From NCBI GenBank assembly GCA_947625965.1, contig CANQQO010000004.1:1-50022 (forward strand): DNA of 50,022 bases, read 5' to 3'. This stretch comes from an uncultured Oscillospiraceae bacterium (lineage in GTDB: Bacteria; Bacillota; Clostridia; Oscillospirales; Oscillospiraceae). Within the stretch, counting starts at the first letter, position 1; every line of letters begins with the position of its first letter. The notes under the pieces were generated by a model, which was not told where the DNA came from, ran no database searches, and worked only from the letters and a program-made list of their open reading frames with translations. The position numbers were made by a program, and so were the translations under genes. This document shows, piece by piece, positions 9,850 through 34,835 of the stretch.

Positions 9850-11031
9850 TCACAGGACCCGCAGGATGCAGCCCTTGAGATAGCTGCTGGTTTCGCTGGA
9901 CAGCACCGCCGGATGGTCCCGGCTCTGGGTCAGGGTCTCCAGCAGCAGGGCCTCCCGGCCCACGTCCGCCGCCGCCTCCCGGAGCATTTTCAGAAACAGC
10001 GGCGCGGTCATGTACTGGCTGCACGAGAAAGTGGCCAGCACTCCGCCGGGCTCCAGGAGCTTCATGCAGCGCAGATTCAGCTCCTTATATCCCCGATAGG
10101 CCCCCTCCAGGGCCTTCCGGTTCTTGGCGAAGGCCGGCGGGTCGCAGATGATCAGGCCGTAGCGCTTCCCCGCCTCGCTCTCCCGACGGACCAGATCGAA
10201 GACATTCTCCTCCTGGGTGGCGATCCGCTCCGCCACGCCGTTGCGGCGGGCGTTTTCCATCACCATGGGCAGGACCTCGGCGCTGATGTCCACCGCCTTT
10301 ACCGTTCTGGCCCCGTAGATGGCGGCGTGGACGGCGAAGCCCCCCGTGTGGCAGCACAGGTCCAGCACGTTCCGGCCGGGACTGTAGGGCTTGATCCGGC
10401 CCCGGTTCTCCTGCTGGTCCAGGAAATGGCCGGTCTTCTGGCCATGGAGCAGGTCGGCGGACATCCGGGCGTCGTGCTCCCAGAATTCCACCCGCTCCGG
10501 CAGTGTCCCGTAGACCACCCCGGCCCGCTGGGGCAGACCCTCCAGCTCCCGAATGGCCAGGTCGTTCCGCTCCACGATGCCCTTGGGGTCAAAGAGCTCT
10601 CCCAGGAGCACCACGATCTCCCGCTGAAAGGCCGCCATGCCCAGGCAGGTGATCTGAAAGCTGAGGTAATCCCCAAATTTGTCCACAGTCAGCCCCGGCA
10701 GGCCGTCGGCGTCGCCGTAGACCACCCGGCAGGCGTTGGAAAAGCCCAGCTCCCGCCGCATCCGCCAGGCGGAGGCGATCCGTTCCCGCAGAAGCCGGGA
10801 ATCCACCTCCACCCGCTCCCGGGCCAGGAGCCGGACCAGGATCTTGGACCGACTGTTGAAAAATCCCCGGCCCAGAAACGCCCCGTCGGACCGGGTCACG
10901 TCCACCACGCCCCCGTCGGCGCAGTCCTCGTCCACCCAGGCGGCCTGATTATCATAGACCCACCGCCCTCCGGCGGCCAGGCCCCGTTCCTCCCCCCGGC
11001 GGAGGCGCACTTCTCCGATTGCCATGGTCAT
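9850..11031 (-). CDS. PUA-domain class I rRNA methyltransferase (RlmI/RlmK-like)
   Basis: VLDLCCHTGGFAVHAAIYGARTVKAVDIS...YGLIICDPPAFAKNRK. Confidence 0.88.
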   Translation of the reverse strand: MTMAIGEVRLRRGEERGLAAGGRWVYDNQAAWVDEDCADGGVVDVTRSDGAFLGRGFFNSRSKILVRLLARERVEVDSRLLRERIASAWRMRRELGFSNACRVVYGDADGLPGLTVDKFGDYLSFQITCLGMAAFQREIVVLLGELFDPKGIVERNDLAIRELEGLPQRAGVVYGTLPERVEFWEHDARMSADLLHGQKTGHFLDQQENRGRIKPYSPGRNVLDLCCHTGGFAVHAAIYGARTVKAVDISAEVLPMVMENARRNGVAERIATQEENVFDLVRRESEAGKRYGLIICDPPAFAKNRKALEGAYRGYKELNLRCMKLLEPGGVLATFSCSQYMTAPLFLKMLREAAADVGREALLLETLTQSRDHPAVLSSETSSYLKGCILRVL

Positions 11032-11957
11032 CCTCCCAGTAATTGTAAAAAGGTATCCGGATCCAGGGTCACCGCCTCCCCCTTGAGGCGGTCCCAGGAA
11101 AATTCCCCCGCCAGCTCCCGGGCGGAGACGGGCTCGCTTCGGTCGATCAGCCTCGCCGCCTTGGCCAGGGCGCCCAGCAGAGCCTCCGGCGTCGTCCTCT
11201 GCCGGAGGGCCCCCAGATCCAGGTCCCGATCCCGCTTGCTCAGCCGGCGGCCGTCGGGAGCCAGAAGCATGGGCACGTGTCCATAGCTTGGATGGGGAAA
11301 TCCCAGCAGCTCCTGCAAATACATCTGCCTGGGTGTAGAGGACAGCAGGTCCGCGCCCCGGACCACCTCCGTGACGCCGGCCTCCCCATCGTCCACGGTG
11401 ACAGCAAGCTGGTAGACGAAGACTCCGTCGGCCCGGCGGACCACGAAATCCCCACAGTCCCGGGCCAGGTTTTGGCGGTATTCCCCCTGGGCCAGGTCCG
11501 TAAACGACCACTCCCGGTCCGGCACCCGGACCCGCCAGGAGGGGGCTCTCCGGAAGGCCGCCCGCTGAGCCTCCGTCAAGTCCCGGCAGGTGCCAGGGTA
11601 GACGTAGGTCCCGTCGGACAGGTGGGGCGCGTTGGGGCTGTGGAGCAGGCTGCGGGTGCAGTAGCAGGGGTAGAGCAGCTCCCTCTCCGCCAGAATTTGA
11701 AAATAGTGTTCATAGGTCCCGCTCCGGCGGCTCTGGGCCTCGGTCTCCAGGTCCCAGTCCAGGCCCAGCCAGGTCAGGTCCTCCCGGATGGACTGGGCAA
11801 ATTCGGCGCTGGTCCGCTGGGTGTCCAGGTCCTCCATCCGCAGCAGGAAGCCCCCGCCCTGGGACCTGGCGGAGAGCCAGGCGGTCAGGGCCGCGAAGAC
11901 GTTCCCCAGGTGCATCCGTCCCGAGGGGGTAGGGGCGAAGCGCCCCAGGACCGTCAC
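11028..11957 (-). CDS. gluQRS: glutamyl-Q tRNA(Asp) synthetase
   Basis: GRFAPTPSGRMHLGNVFAAL...LLRMEDLDTQR...LSKRDRDLDL; GTG start. Confidence 0.88.
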   Translation of the reverse strand: MTVLGRFAPTPSGRMHLGNVFAALTAWLSARSQGGGFLLRMEDLDTQRTSAEFAQSIREDLTWLGLDWDLETEAQSRRSGTYEHYFQILAERELLYPCYCTRSLLHSPNAPHLSDGTYVYPGTCRDLTEAQRAAFRRAPSWRVRVPDREWSFTDLAQGEYRQNLARDCGDFVVRRADGVFVYQLAVTVDDGEAGVTEVVRGADLLSSTPRQMYLQELLGFPHPSYGHVPMLLAPDGRRLSKRDRDLDLGALRQRTTPEALLGALAKAARLIDRSEPVSARELAGEFSWDRLKGEAVTLDPDTFLQLLGG

Positions 11958-21317: not shown

Positions 21318-21429
21318 GAAACCGCCCCTGTCCCCAAAGGCGCCTCCTTGGACAGAGGGGAGCGGGATATTTTGTAAAAATGTCGCGGTGGACGGTCCTT
21401 CCGTCCGCTACGACGTGGGGACAAAGTCG

Positions 21430-21573
21430 GGCCTTGCCCGCGTTTTGCGCTGCAAAAAGGGTCCCGCCAGTGCACGCACTGGCCGCCGACAGCCTGCCGG
21501 GCTGTTGGATTTGATCTTTCAAGTCCCTCTACCAAAATAAACCCGCCCTAAGGGCGGGTTTATTTTGGCGAAT
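21430..21573 (-). repeat. Family-2 hairpin cassette, diverged single copy
   Basis: Shares ccagtgcacgcactggccgccgacagcctgccgggctgttggatttgatctttcaagtccctc and terminator-like CCAAAATAAACCCGCCC/GGGCGGGTTTATTTTGG with the 22.36-22.99 kb array. Confidence 0.75.
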
Positions 21574-21650
21574 AACCGTAATTTTGATACAAACGACCCC
21601 CCTTTTCGGTTAGGGGGGCACTTTTGCAAAAGTAGGTTCACATGGTGGTT

Positions 21651-22325
21651 TTAATGCCTCTTGACTACTGCGAACATCATTTGCGGAAAATCCGGCTCGA
21701 CTGCGGTCATGCCTTTTTTGACTACATCAAGACCATTTTGCGCCAGTTCTGCTTCAAAGGTTTGGAAATTAACAATTCTACAGGAAGTTCCGGCGATTTG
21801 TACGGTTTTTCCCGAGGGTTCATGGATTCGTTCATTGAGGTCGAATGCCGTGCGGACATCAGTCTGCCGCTCATAGGCACCGTCGCCCATAGTACAGATT
21901 AAGGCAGTTCCAAAGGGAGCTAAATGCTTATGAATGAAGCGATAAAATGCAGTTCGGTCATCGTCCAAAACAAGCATATGAAGAACAGCCACAGCGTAAA
22001 TAAAGTCGAATTTACTGTCAAGCTCTCCGGCAACACAATCAACGACCTGAAAATGCATTGCAAAATCGGGAAACGCTCTCCTGCAAAAACCAATCGCTTC
22101 CGGCGATACATCGGTCGCCAAAAGGTCAAATCCCTGCAAGAGAAGCGGATGCGCGTCGCGCCCCTCGCCGCAGCCGATCTCTAATAGCTTGCTATTAGGC
22201 GAAATGGAAAAGCTGCGAATCGTTTCCGCTACGATGGGGGACGGATCTTCGCTGAACCATTTTAGATCTTGTTCATGGATCTGCCTGAAACGGTCATCAT
22301 AGGCTTCGTAATATTTCCTCTCCAT
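21651..22325 (-). CDS. class I SAM-dependent methyltransferase (lower GC)
   Basis: LLEIGCGEGRDAHPLLLQGFDLLATDVSPEAI; ATG at 22325 with gggagat RBS. Confidence 0.85.
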   Translation of the reverse strand: MERKYYEAYDDRFRQIHEQDLKWFSEDPSPIVAETIRSFSISPNSKLLEIGCGEGRDAHPLLLQGFDLLATDVSPEAIGFCRRAFPDFAMHFQVVDCVAGELDSKFDFIYAVAVLHMLVLDDDRTAFYRFIHKHLAPFGTALICTMGDGAYERQTDVRTAFDLNERIHEPSGKTVQIAGTSCRIVNFQTFEAELAQNGLDVVKKGMTAVEPDFPQMMFAVVKRH

Positions 22326-22357
22326 TTCTATATCTCCCTTATACAAAGTGCTTTTTT

Positions 22358-22986
22358 GGCGGAGAAGGAGGGATTTGTCTCCGTTTTTGCTGCGCAAAAA
22401 CAAAGGACCGGCCAGTGTGCGCACTGGCCGCCGACAGCCCGCCGGGCTGTCGGATTTGATTATTCAAATCCCTCCTAAGGCCAAAATGAAACCGCCCTTA
22501 GGGAGCTTTGTTTTGGCGGAGAAGGAGGGATTTGTCTCCGTTTTTGCTGTGCAAAAACAAAGGACCGGCCAGTGTACGCACTGGCCACCGACAGCCCACT
22601 GGGCTGTCGGATTTGATCGTTCAAATCCCCCCTAAGGCCAAAATGAAACCGCCCTTAGGGAGTTCCGTTTTGGCGGAGAAGGAGGGATTTGTCTCCGTTT
22701 TTGCTGCGCAAAAACAAAGGACCGGCCAGTGTGCACACTGGCCGCCGACAGCCCACTGGGCTGTCGGATTTGATTATTCAAATCCCTCCTAAGGCCAAAA
22801 TGAAACCGCCCTTAGGGAGTTTCGTTTTGGCGGAGAAGGAGGGATTTGTCTCCGTTTTTGCTGCGCAAAAACAAAGGATCGGCCAGTGTGCGCACTGGCC
22901 GCCGACAGCCCACTGGGCTGTCGGATTTGATCGTTCAAATCCCCCCTAAGGCCAAAATGAAACCGCCCCTAGGGCGGTTTCATTTT
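22358..22986 (-). repeat. Family-2 tandem array: four units, period 157-158 bp, each with tRNA-Ser 3'-end fragment, terminator-like hairpin and four further hairpins
   Basis: ggcggagaaggagggattt recurs at 22358, 22515, 22672, 22829 and (true tRNA) 22987. Confidence 0.95.
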
Positions 22987-23077
22987 GGCGGAGAAGGAGG
23001 GATTTGAACCCTCGATACCCTTTTGGGGTATACACGATTTCCAATCGTGCGCGCTCGGCCAGCTACGCGACTTCTCC
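22986..23077 (-). tRNA. tRNA-Ser (GGA), CCA encoded
   Basis: GGAGAAGTCGCGTAGCTGGCCGAGCGCGCACGATTGGAAATCGTGTATACCCCAAAAGGGTATCGAGGGTTCAAATCCCTCCTTCTCCGCCA with long variable arm. Confidence 0.95.
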
Positions 23078-34624: not shown

Positions 34625-34672
34625 AAATAAGACGGAGGCACGGCGGGGGCGAAATCCCCCGCTGTGCCTCCG
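34625..34672 (-). terminator. riboswitch expression-platform terminator
   Basis: GGAGGCACAGCGGGGGATTTCGCCCCCGCCGTGCCTCC followed by T-rich tract on minus strand. Confidence 0.8.
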
Positions 34673-34674
34673 CT

Positions 34675-34835
34675 GAATGTACCTGAGAGATTCCCCGCGA
34701 GAAAGCGGGTTGCACCTTCGGCGTGGGGGCAAGCCCCACTCTACGGAGTATCGTCCTGGCCCGGTCCTTTTGCCTGAGAGTTTCCGCGTTCCCCTTCGGC
34801 GCCAAATCCGGTCTCTCCCGGGCCATTCATCCGAT
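34675..34835 (-). promoter_or_regulatory. tandem glycine riboswitch
   Basis: Minus strand: GGGAGAGACCGG...GCCGAAGGGGAA...AAACTCTCAGGCAAAAGGACC (aptamer 1), ...GCCGAAGGTGCAA...AATCTCTCAGGTACA (aptamer 2). Confidence 0.93.

Follow-up and report, generated by a model that had tools for sequence, protein, structure and literature searches.

The window, that is, the whole 50,022-nucleotide stretch of DNA analyzed here (an uncultured Oscillospiraceae bacterium, GenBank assembly GCA_947625965.1, contig CANQQO010000004.1), contains a minus-strand gene for tRNA-Ser(GGA), followed by four tandem copies of a short unit, a cargo gene, and an older, decayed relative of the units. TRF assigns the array a period of 157, with 4.2 copies and 94% matches over positions 22354-23006. 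The 19-mer AAATCCCTCCTTCTCCGCC has minus-strand starts at 23005, 22847, 22690, 22533, and 22376, corresponding to a spacing of 158/157/157/157, and the exact repeat in each unit comprises 21 nt, from C56 to A76 of the tRNA. Both measures bear out the original prediction of a four-unit tandem array with the 3′ end of tRNA-Ser in each unit. The array had also been taken to end at 22358, which does not hold, because a fifth, decayed module is found at about 21429-21565, behind a methyltransferase gene; this module, the cargo gene, and an inverted tRNA copy within the unit had all been overlooked.

The modules have a fixed order: the tRNA, a terminator hairpin (T1), an inverted copy of the T-arm of the host tRNA (IR, which reads GGRGGGATTTGAA in the array unit), the hairpins P2, P3, and P4, and a direct repeat of the final 21 nt of the tRNA, C56 to A76 (DR′, CAAATCCCTCCTTCTCCGCCA in the array). 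The apex of the P2 hairpin is CCRGYGG. The features of the locus are as follows.

22986..23077, minus strand: tRNA-Ser(GGA), host gene of the array (ARAGORN; Rfam tRNA, 55.2 bits)
22986-23006, minus strand: target repeat DR, the final 21 nt of tRNA-Ser(GGA), C56 to A76
22828..22985, minus strand: unit 1, 158 bp, adjoining the tRNA (from sequence; covariance model match 22841-22943, E 2.5e-20), with T1 at 22954-22985, IR at 22934-22946, P2 at 22902-22924, P3 at 22880-22901, P4 at 22854-22872, and DR′ at 22828-22848
22671..22827, minus strand: unit 2, 157 bp, same plan as unit 1 (model match 22684-22786)
22514..22670, minus strand: unit 3, 157 bp, same plan as unit 1 (model match 22527-22629)
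22357..22513, minus strand: unit 4, 157 bp, same plan as unit 1, with DR′ at 22357-22377 (model match 22370-22472)
21571..22356, minus strand: cargo segment between the DR′ of unit 4 and the T1 of the older module
21651..22325, minus strand: cargo gene for a class I SAM-dependent methyltransferase of 224 aa (Pfam Methyltransf_12, E 2.2e-13)
21429..21565, minus strand: older, decayed fifth module with T1, IR, P2, P3, and a P4 remnant, without DR′

The partial repeat CGCCAAAA occurs at both junctions of the cargo segment (22361 and 21570). The decayed module aligns by blastn at 82% to the tRNA end plus unit 1, and its model match covers 21429-21527 (E 3.4e-9). Elsewhere in the window, tandem glycine riboswitch aptamers lie on the minus strand at 34665-34830, near glycine-cleavage genes.

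No plausible gene was found in the 157-bp unit, which is tiny, non-coding, and structured, as first proposed. Folding in silico predicts a 12-bp pairing of IR with DR′ that closes the three hairpins into a four-helix junction. The predicted fold of one unit has an energy of -40.5 kcal/mol as DNA (z -8.2) and -69 kcal/mol as RNA (z -8.8), some 8 standard deviations below shuffled sequences. The 5′ arm of T1 is decayed in unit 2, for which a closed four-helix junction is predicted. Upon co-folding with the tRNA, IR is predicted to switch to pairing with the tRNA's own 3′ half. The original prediction was thus right about the tRNA 3′ end and the terminator hairpin, but counted four further hairpins where there are three, the supposed fourth being the long-range stem formed by IR and the next direct repeat.

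The fold is backed by covariation in a 55-row alignment of modules, in which 95.8% of the pair cells are paired, compared to 78.3% in shuffles. Changes on both sides are seen for 21 of the 26 pairs, with 228 double-change cells, and the covariation score is 0.488 versus 0.155 for shuffled alignments; none of 500 shuffles reaches any of these measures. Shifting the partner by 1-3 columns leaves 36-50% paired, a control that is favorable by construction because the structure was derived from the same 55 rows, although this does not explain the 228 double changes. G-U pairs make up 1.8% in P2-P4, as opposed to 5.9% in the acceptor stems and 12.4% in the T stems of the tRNAs at the same loci. This scarcity suggests that the palindromes are kept at the DNA level, but it could instead stem from template-switch repair rather than from a function of the DNA.

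The array unit belongs to what is apparently an undescribed family of tiny, gene-less, hairpin-folded elements at tRNA ends in gut bacteria. Within one Oscillospiraceae genus, nearly all tRNA types, as well as tmRNA, have family sites on their 3′ side. A covariance model (R1), built from 55 modules, has matches in 30 of 37 genomes of this genus, with up to 24 per genome; across the order, 9 of 298 genomes have a match in all, and the family is rare outside the genus. When 60 relatives were searched with the array sequence and with a short P2 pattern, the latter matched in 34 and its reversed form in none, which, like the fold energy of the unit, lies far outside chance expectation; the same plan was found at other RNA genes of these relatives, and a scan of 85,488 species genomes returned 107 stretches, of which those listed are nearly all from Oscillospiraceae/Clostridia gut MAGs, including Candidatus Faecousia. 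By script, 132 unique modules were assigned to the 3′ side of tRNA or tmRNA genes in same-strand orientation, with P2 at 60-90 nt from the tRNA end in most of them; those compared by sequence, a subset, represent 32 RNA-gene species, namely 31 tRNAs and tmRNA. A single origin by slippage with nothing similar elsewhere, which the original prediction had set against itself, is incompatible with these comparable modules at other genes. The recurrence of the hairpin module at other tRNA ends of the same genome, for which it had proposed to search, was found: the 11 model matches in the window's own genome comprise the four array units and the decayed module, four tandem copies with a Trp-type repeat (C52), one copy at tRNA-Pro (C22), and one at tRNA-Arg (C44). 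Tandem arrays also occur at tmRNA (L028), at tRNA-Ser(CGA) (L025, L182), and as the Trp-type repeats just mentioned (L026), but the genomes are nearly all draft MAGs, in which arrays may be misassembled. Related versions with a different outer hairpin are found at tRNA-Ser and tRNA-Tyr in other families (L320, L318, L321).

At gathering score, Rfam 15 detects tRNA alone in the region, and its sub-threshold matches are mostly terminator-like. Phage records gave no blastn match, and a pattern search of IMG/VR returned one contig (L091), on which the module, at 702-808, has no detected adjoining tRNA. Our queries of the open PMC literature, several of them narrow and with subscription journals and bioRxiv outside their reach, found no description of the family. 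Modules on short contigs labelled Lentisphaeria or Bacteroidales (L122, L175, L190) are probably Oscillospiraceae contamination.

Several other repeats were encountered. A second dispersed repeat (GTAAGCGAAGCGCAGTCGCGGTAGTGAATGACAG..CTGTCAGAGCCGCGACC) with the same CCGGTGG hairpin lies away from tRNAs (L072, L073, L082, L084); one factor may recognize both this repeat and the tRNA modules. A longer non-coding version (..GTGGGAGAGTCC..), ending GCAAAAGTCCTATAAGAACA..CGTACCA, is found at tRNA-Arg and tRNA-Leu (L077, L078, L080, L086), and the similar right end of the cargo segment in L191 hints at larger, cargo-bearing relatives. Yet another small insertion uses the same tRNA ends and has its right end near AAATATCTTTTTTATTGTGGTTAGCCA (L026, L087, L149, L169, L095, L036); a T-arm-like GGGTTCRA precedes that end, and no clear gene is present in the L087 and L169 copies.

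Comparison of occupied and empty spacers across genomes supports precise insertion, as far as sequence can tell. Between the tRNA-Thr and tRNA-Tyr genes, the spacer is 9 or 22 nt long when empty (L063, L166) but 134-150 nt when occupied (L286, L100, L167), in which case it consists of a module, a full tRNA-Thr DR′, and a residual spacer ending in TTCATAT or GAATAT, like the empty ones. Likewise, the Arg-His spacer is 39 nt in L067 versus 172 nt in L085, and the Ser(GCT)-Ser(TGA) spacer 35 nt in L052 versus 328 nt in L097, where an intact module is joined by a decayed one. Since the compared species differ in spacer sequence, the term "precise" refers mainly to a DR′ of full length with the expected type of spacer behind it. 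The modules within the Thr-Tyr and Arg-His clusters (L286, L100, L167, L085) are devoid of T1, which would there cut off the downstream tRNA. The module in the Ser-Ser cluster has a terminator, and so does its empty counterpart.

The flanking repeats follow the host tRNA. The single best match of DR′ is the host in 100 of the 129 modules with an adjacent tRNA, and where inspected, the clear exceptions proved to be contig ends or repeats that are truncated. With one mismatch allowed, the start of DR′ falls within about 1 nt of C56 in 96 of 107 cases, and A76 is reached in 64. IR scores 12.98 against the host and 8.05 against random tRNAs (maximum 8.48 in 200 trials), and has the host as its single best match in only 38 of the 129 modules, with about 16 clearly resembling another tRNA more. 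Bodies, on the other hand, recur at different tRNAs. Those at tRNA-Trp and tRNA-Pro are 89-94% alike, and two tRNA-Pro loci (L087, from the window's own genome, and L133) combine a Trp-type IR with a Pro-type DR′; a third locus, L088, has a Pro-type IR, a T1 much as in these two, and a similar flank. The SVLT01 genome has modules that are 87-92% alike at tRNAs for Leu, Arg, and Lys, and every one of them is bordered by the end of the tRNA at which it lies. Identities above 85% are seen for 11% of pairs at different tRNAs of one genome, 3.5% of pairs at the same tRNA in different genomes, and 0.5% of pairs sharing neither. The clear cross-type cases that point to a target-derived DR′ are few (Trp/Pro, Arg/Leu, and the one-genome Leu/Arg/Lys set), and because IR usually matches the host as well, both repeats could be altered by gene conversion. 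The repeats can thus be regarded as att-like marks of insertion at the tRNA 3′ end, as originally suggested, but the standard att mechanism is not clearly supported, since bodies that are nearly the same can occupy different tRNAs with a distal repeat that still corresponds to the host.

Within the array, 17 columns are variable, the units differ from one another at 5-11 positions, and three sites alternate in an ABAB pattern. The variants said to be shared by units 1/3 and 2/4 are therefore real, and duplication of a dimer is likely, although it was not recent and its trace consists of only three closely spaced sites. Two syntenic loci shed light on the history. L171 contains tRNA-Ser, one fresh module, DR′, and a decayed module, and at the fresh module a near-perfect palindrome spans the tRNA end, T1, and IR. 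In L041, a single module is accompanied by a cargo gene and a decayed module. The cargo segment at 21571..22356 is absent from both. This comparison indicates that the old module is common to the loci, that newer material lies nearer the tRNA, and that the four units probably arose by duplication in place. The array is thus probably one element amplified through its direct repeats by dimer duplication, as read from the sequence of the units. Arrays elsewhere mix clearly different modules (L106, L185, L142), so repeated insertion also occurs.

Most modules have no cargo. Where present, it may lie between the tRNA or DR′ and the next module (the window, L095, L100, L107, L191), or else just upstream of a module. 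The genes in these positions include AbiEi/AbiEii (L093), an endonuclease/exonuclease/phosphatase-family protein (L191), one for a protein of 1346 aa that matches LmuA weakly (L147), and others that have no assigned family. Because cargo junctions differ from module junctions, we read the cargo segments as separate insertions into the same hotspot, for which the DR′ copies may provide extra landing sites. An ordinary-looking larger element was also noted at tRNA-Ser in L054 (4169-7377), where a 3.1-kb insertion is flanked by a roughly 50-bp direct repeat spanning the terminator.

We searched for an enzyme that might drive the modules, and none of those considered correlates with them. Reverse transcription with a tRNA primer site is an attractive reading because IR can consist of TGG and the complement of the tRNA 3′ end, but it was rejected as the current driver, as PF00078 has no match in several module-rich genomes (G000, G008, G011, G012, G018). 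A Y1 transposase (PF01797) is present in 28 of the 60 relatives, with no match in the window's genome, G011, G012, and G022, and its presence does not follow module content. RAYT/Y1 was rejected accordingly; no modules or module-like hairpins were found next to the remaining RAYT genes that were checked, a similar hairpin in L249 being the sole exception. In L021, a RAYT (Y1 transposase) gene at 10853-11362 lies about 1 kb from a module. A Cas1-based, casposon-like driver was likewise discarded, since PF01867 has no match in many module-rich genomes (G000, G008, G011, G012, G018, G022, all incomplete drafts). Tyrosine recombinases were found in all 60 relatives by a general family search and, being everywhere, are uninformative on the driver. 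No autonomous transposon with the same ends as the module was seen among the loci compared.

Taken together, these observations make it probable, on sequence grounds, that the units are gene-less, non-autonomous mobile elements that insert 3′ of tRNA and tmRNA genes and have about 21 bp of target on both sides. In the mechanism that we propose, the body (T1, IR, and P2-P4) would insert 3′ of the RNA gene so that some 21 bp of target, C56 to A76, flank it on either side, and T1 would restore transcription termination and keep the tRNA usable. The element would move as folded DNA, recognized by a recombinase or transposase acting in trans. DR′ would be made upon insertion as a target duplication, which best fits a DR′ that is of host type while bodies switch tRNA types. 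IR would travel with the body and be converted afterward to match the new tRNA through hairpin-templated copying; this would account for the extended, almost perfect palindromes of L031, L088, L106, and L149. Older, decayed copies sit away from the tRNA, and in the window one element would have given rise to four units via its direct repeats, with the methyltransferase cargo and the older decayed module beyond. That such gene-less hairpins make up a new class of mobile DNA, moving among almost all tRNA genes as folded DNA, duplicating a fixed 21-bp target of whichever tRNA is entered, and then rewriting an internal inverted copy to match, is a more tentative proposal, which we consider plausible but somewhat less likely than not.

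The main rival explanation, which we regard as rather unlikely, invokes a tyrosine integrase encoded elsewhere that recombines in the universal T-loop, the element bringing in a tRNA 3′ end, DR′ being the displaced original, and the units being integrase-less miniatures mobilized in trans. DR′ starts in the T-loop, a classic sublocation of attB, as for Ms6 (PMC1762012), and tDNA islands are known to regenerate their target, the element supplying a new tRNA 3′ end and leaving the old one behind as a displaced fragment (Islander, PMC4383910). Tyrosine recombinases are available in all relatives searched, and ordinary larger insertions use the same sites (L054, L191). However, a switch of tRNA type by this route would give the new tRNA a wrong 3′ end unless it were later repaired, and the near-identical bodies at the Leu, Arg, and Lys tRNAs of one genome have matching ends on both sides. 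Moreover, the incomplete genome G008, with 14 modules, has a single weak integrase match, and no tyrosine integrase gene occurs in the module-adjacent cargo examined. Equating the tRNA 3′ end with attI and the module with attC, as in integron-like cassettes, would account for cargo genes in front of modules and would make the gene-less units empty cassettes; this seems improbable, as most modules lack cargo and the cargo segments have their own, differing right ends (L191, L087, L169), which makes them look like separate hotspot insertions.

Two further explanations dispense with mobility. A structured host RNA, co-transcribed with the tRNA and regulating its maturation, with arrays formed by recombination, would fit the conserved, covarying fold, the orientation that is always that of the tRNA, and the complementarity of IR to the tRNA 3′ half, with which it competes in predicted folding. 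It is nevertheless very improbable, given that T1 precedes the module and would stop transcription, that any given tRNA carries a module in only some relatives while distal copies decay, that G-U pairs are rare, and that the same plan recurs at unrelated tRNAs and tmRNA. Local slippage, a recent tandem duplication of no wider meaning, draws on the ABAB sites, which suggest in-place dimer duplication, but is hardly credible in view of the same architecture at dozens of other RNA genes and genomes and of the mixed arrays in L106 and L185. As a full explanation it is refuted, though it may explain how one or two units became four.

If insertion by gene-less elements at tRNA genes is confirmed, it would add a mobile element that lacks genes and yet apparently changes from one tRNA type to another, something not readily accommodated by standard tyrosine-integrase chemistry. 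One genus with up to two dozen tiny, structured elements at its tRNA ends, each marked by a copy of the host tRNA, provides a natural system for studying which enzyme recognizes DNA folded at tRNA genes, what influence additional att-like copies have on where later islands go, and by what means cells preserve the function of essential tRNAs despite constant insertion. It also carries a warning: when tRNA 3′ ends recur downstream of a tRNA, a lost genomic island is not necessarily the cause.

The 3′ ends of tRNA genes rank with the most common sites at which bacterial genomic islands insert. The modules resemble tRNA/tmRNA islands and prophages in their insertion into tDNA, direct repeats from the T-loop to the 3′ end, intact tRNA, and accretion at one site, but they are about 150 bp long, have no integrase or other gene, carry an IR that tracks the host and covarying hairpins, and use nearly every tRNA type with one module family. 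With REP/BIME sequences and their RAYTs they share short, non-coding, palindromic DNA spread genome-wide without a gene of its own, from which they differ in the fixed target (the tRNA 3′ end), the 21-bp repeat, and the lack of Y1 matches in the genomes named above. Casposons, which can use tRNA 3′ ends, and CRISPR arrays similarly duplicate a fixed target and grow beside a fixed, leader-like end, whereas the inserted unit of a module is conserved, not a spacer, and cas1 has no match in the window's genome or many module-rich ones. Integron cassettes (attC) are comparable in their arrays of units resembling hairpin recombination sites and the neighboring single-gene cargo, but the site of a module is a tRNA gene and the unit ends match each host tRNA. 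MITEs are also gene-less and structured and have a target repeat, in contrast to which the modules show a strict target, a cloverleaf-like fold instead of plain terminal inverted repeats, and no parent transposon among the loci compared. The family lacks defining features of islands, REP/RAYT systems, casposons, and retroelements, and to our knowledge no known mobile element combines its traits. In kind, it is a miniature non-autonomous mobile element whose target, host-tracking repeats, and fold are new at least as a variant, and possibly as a class.
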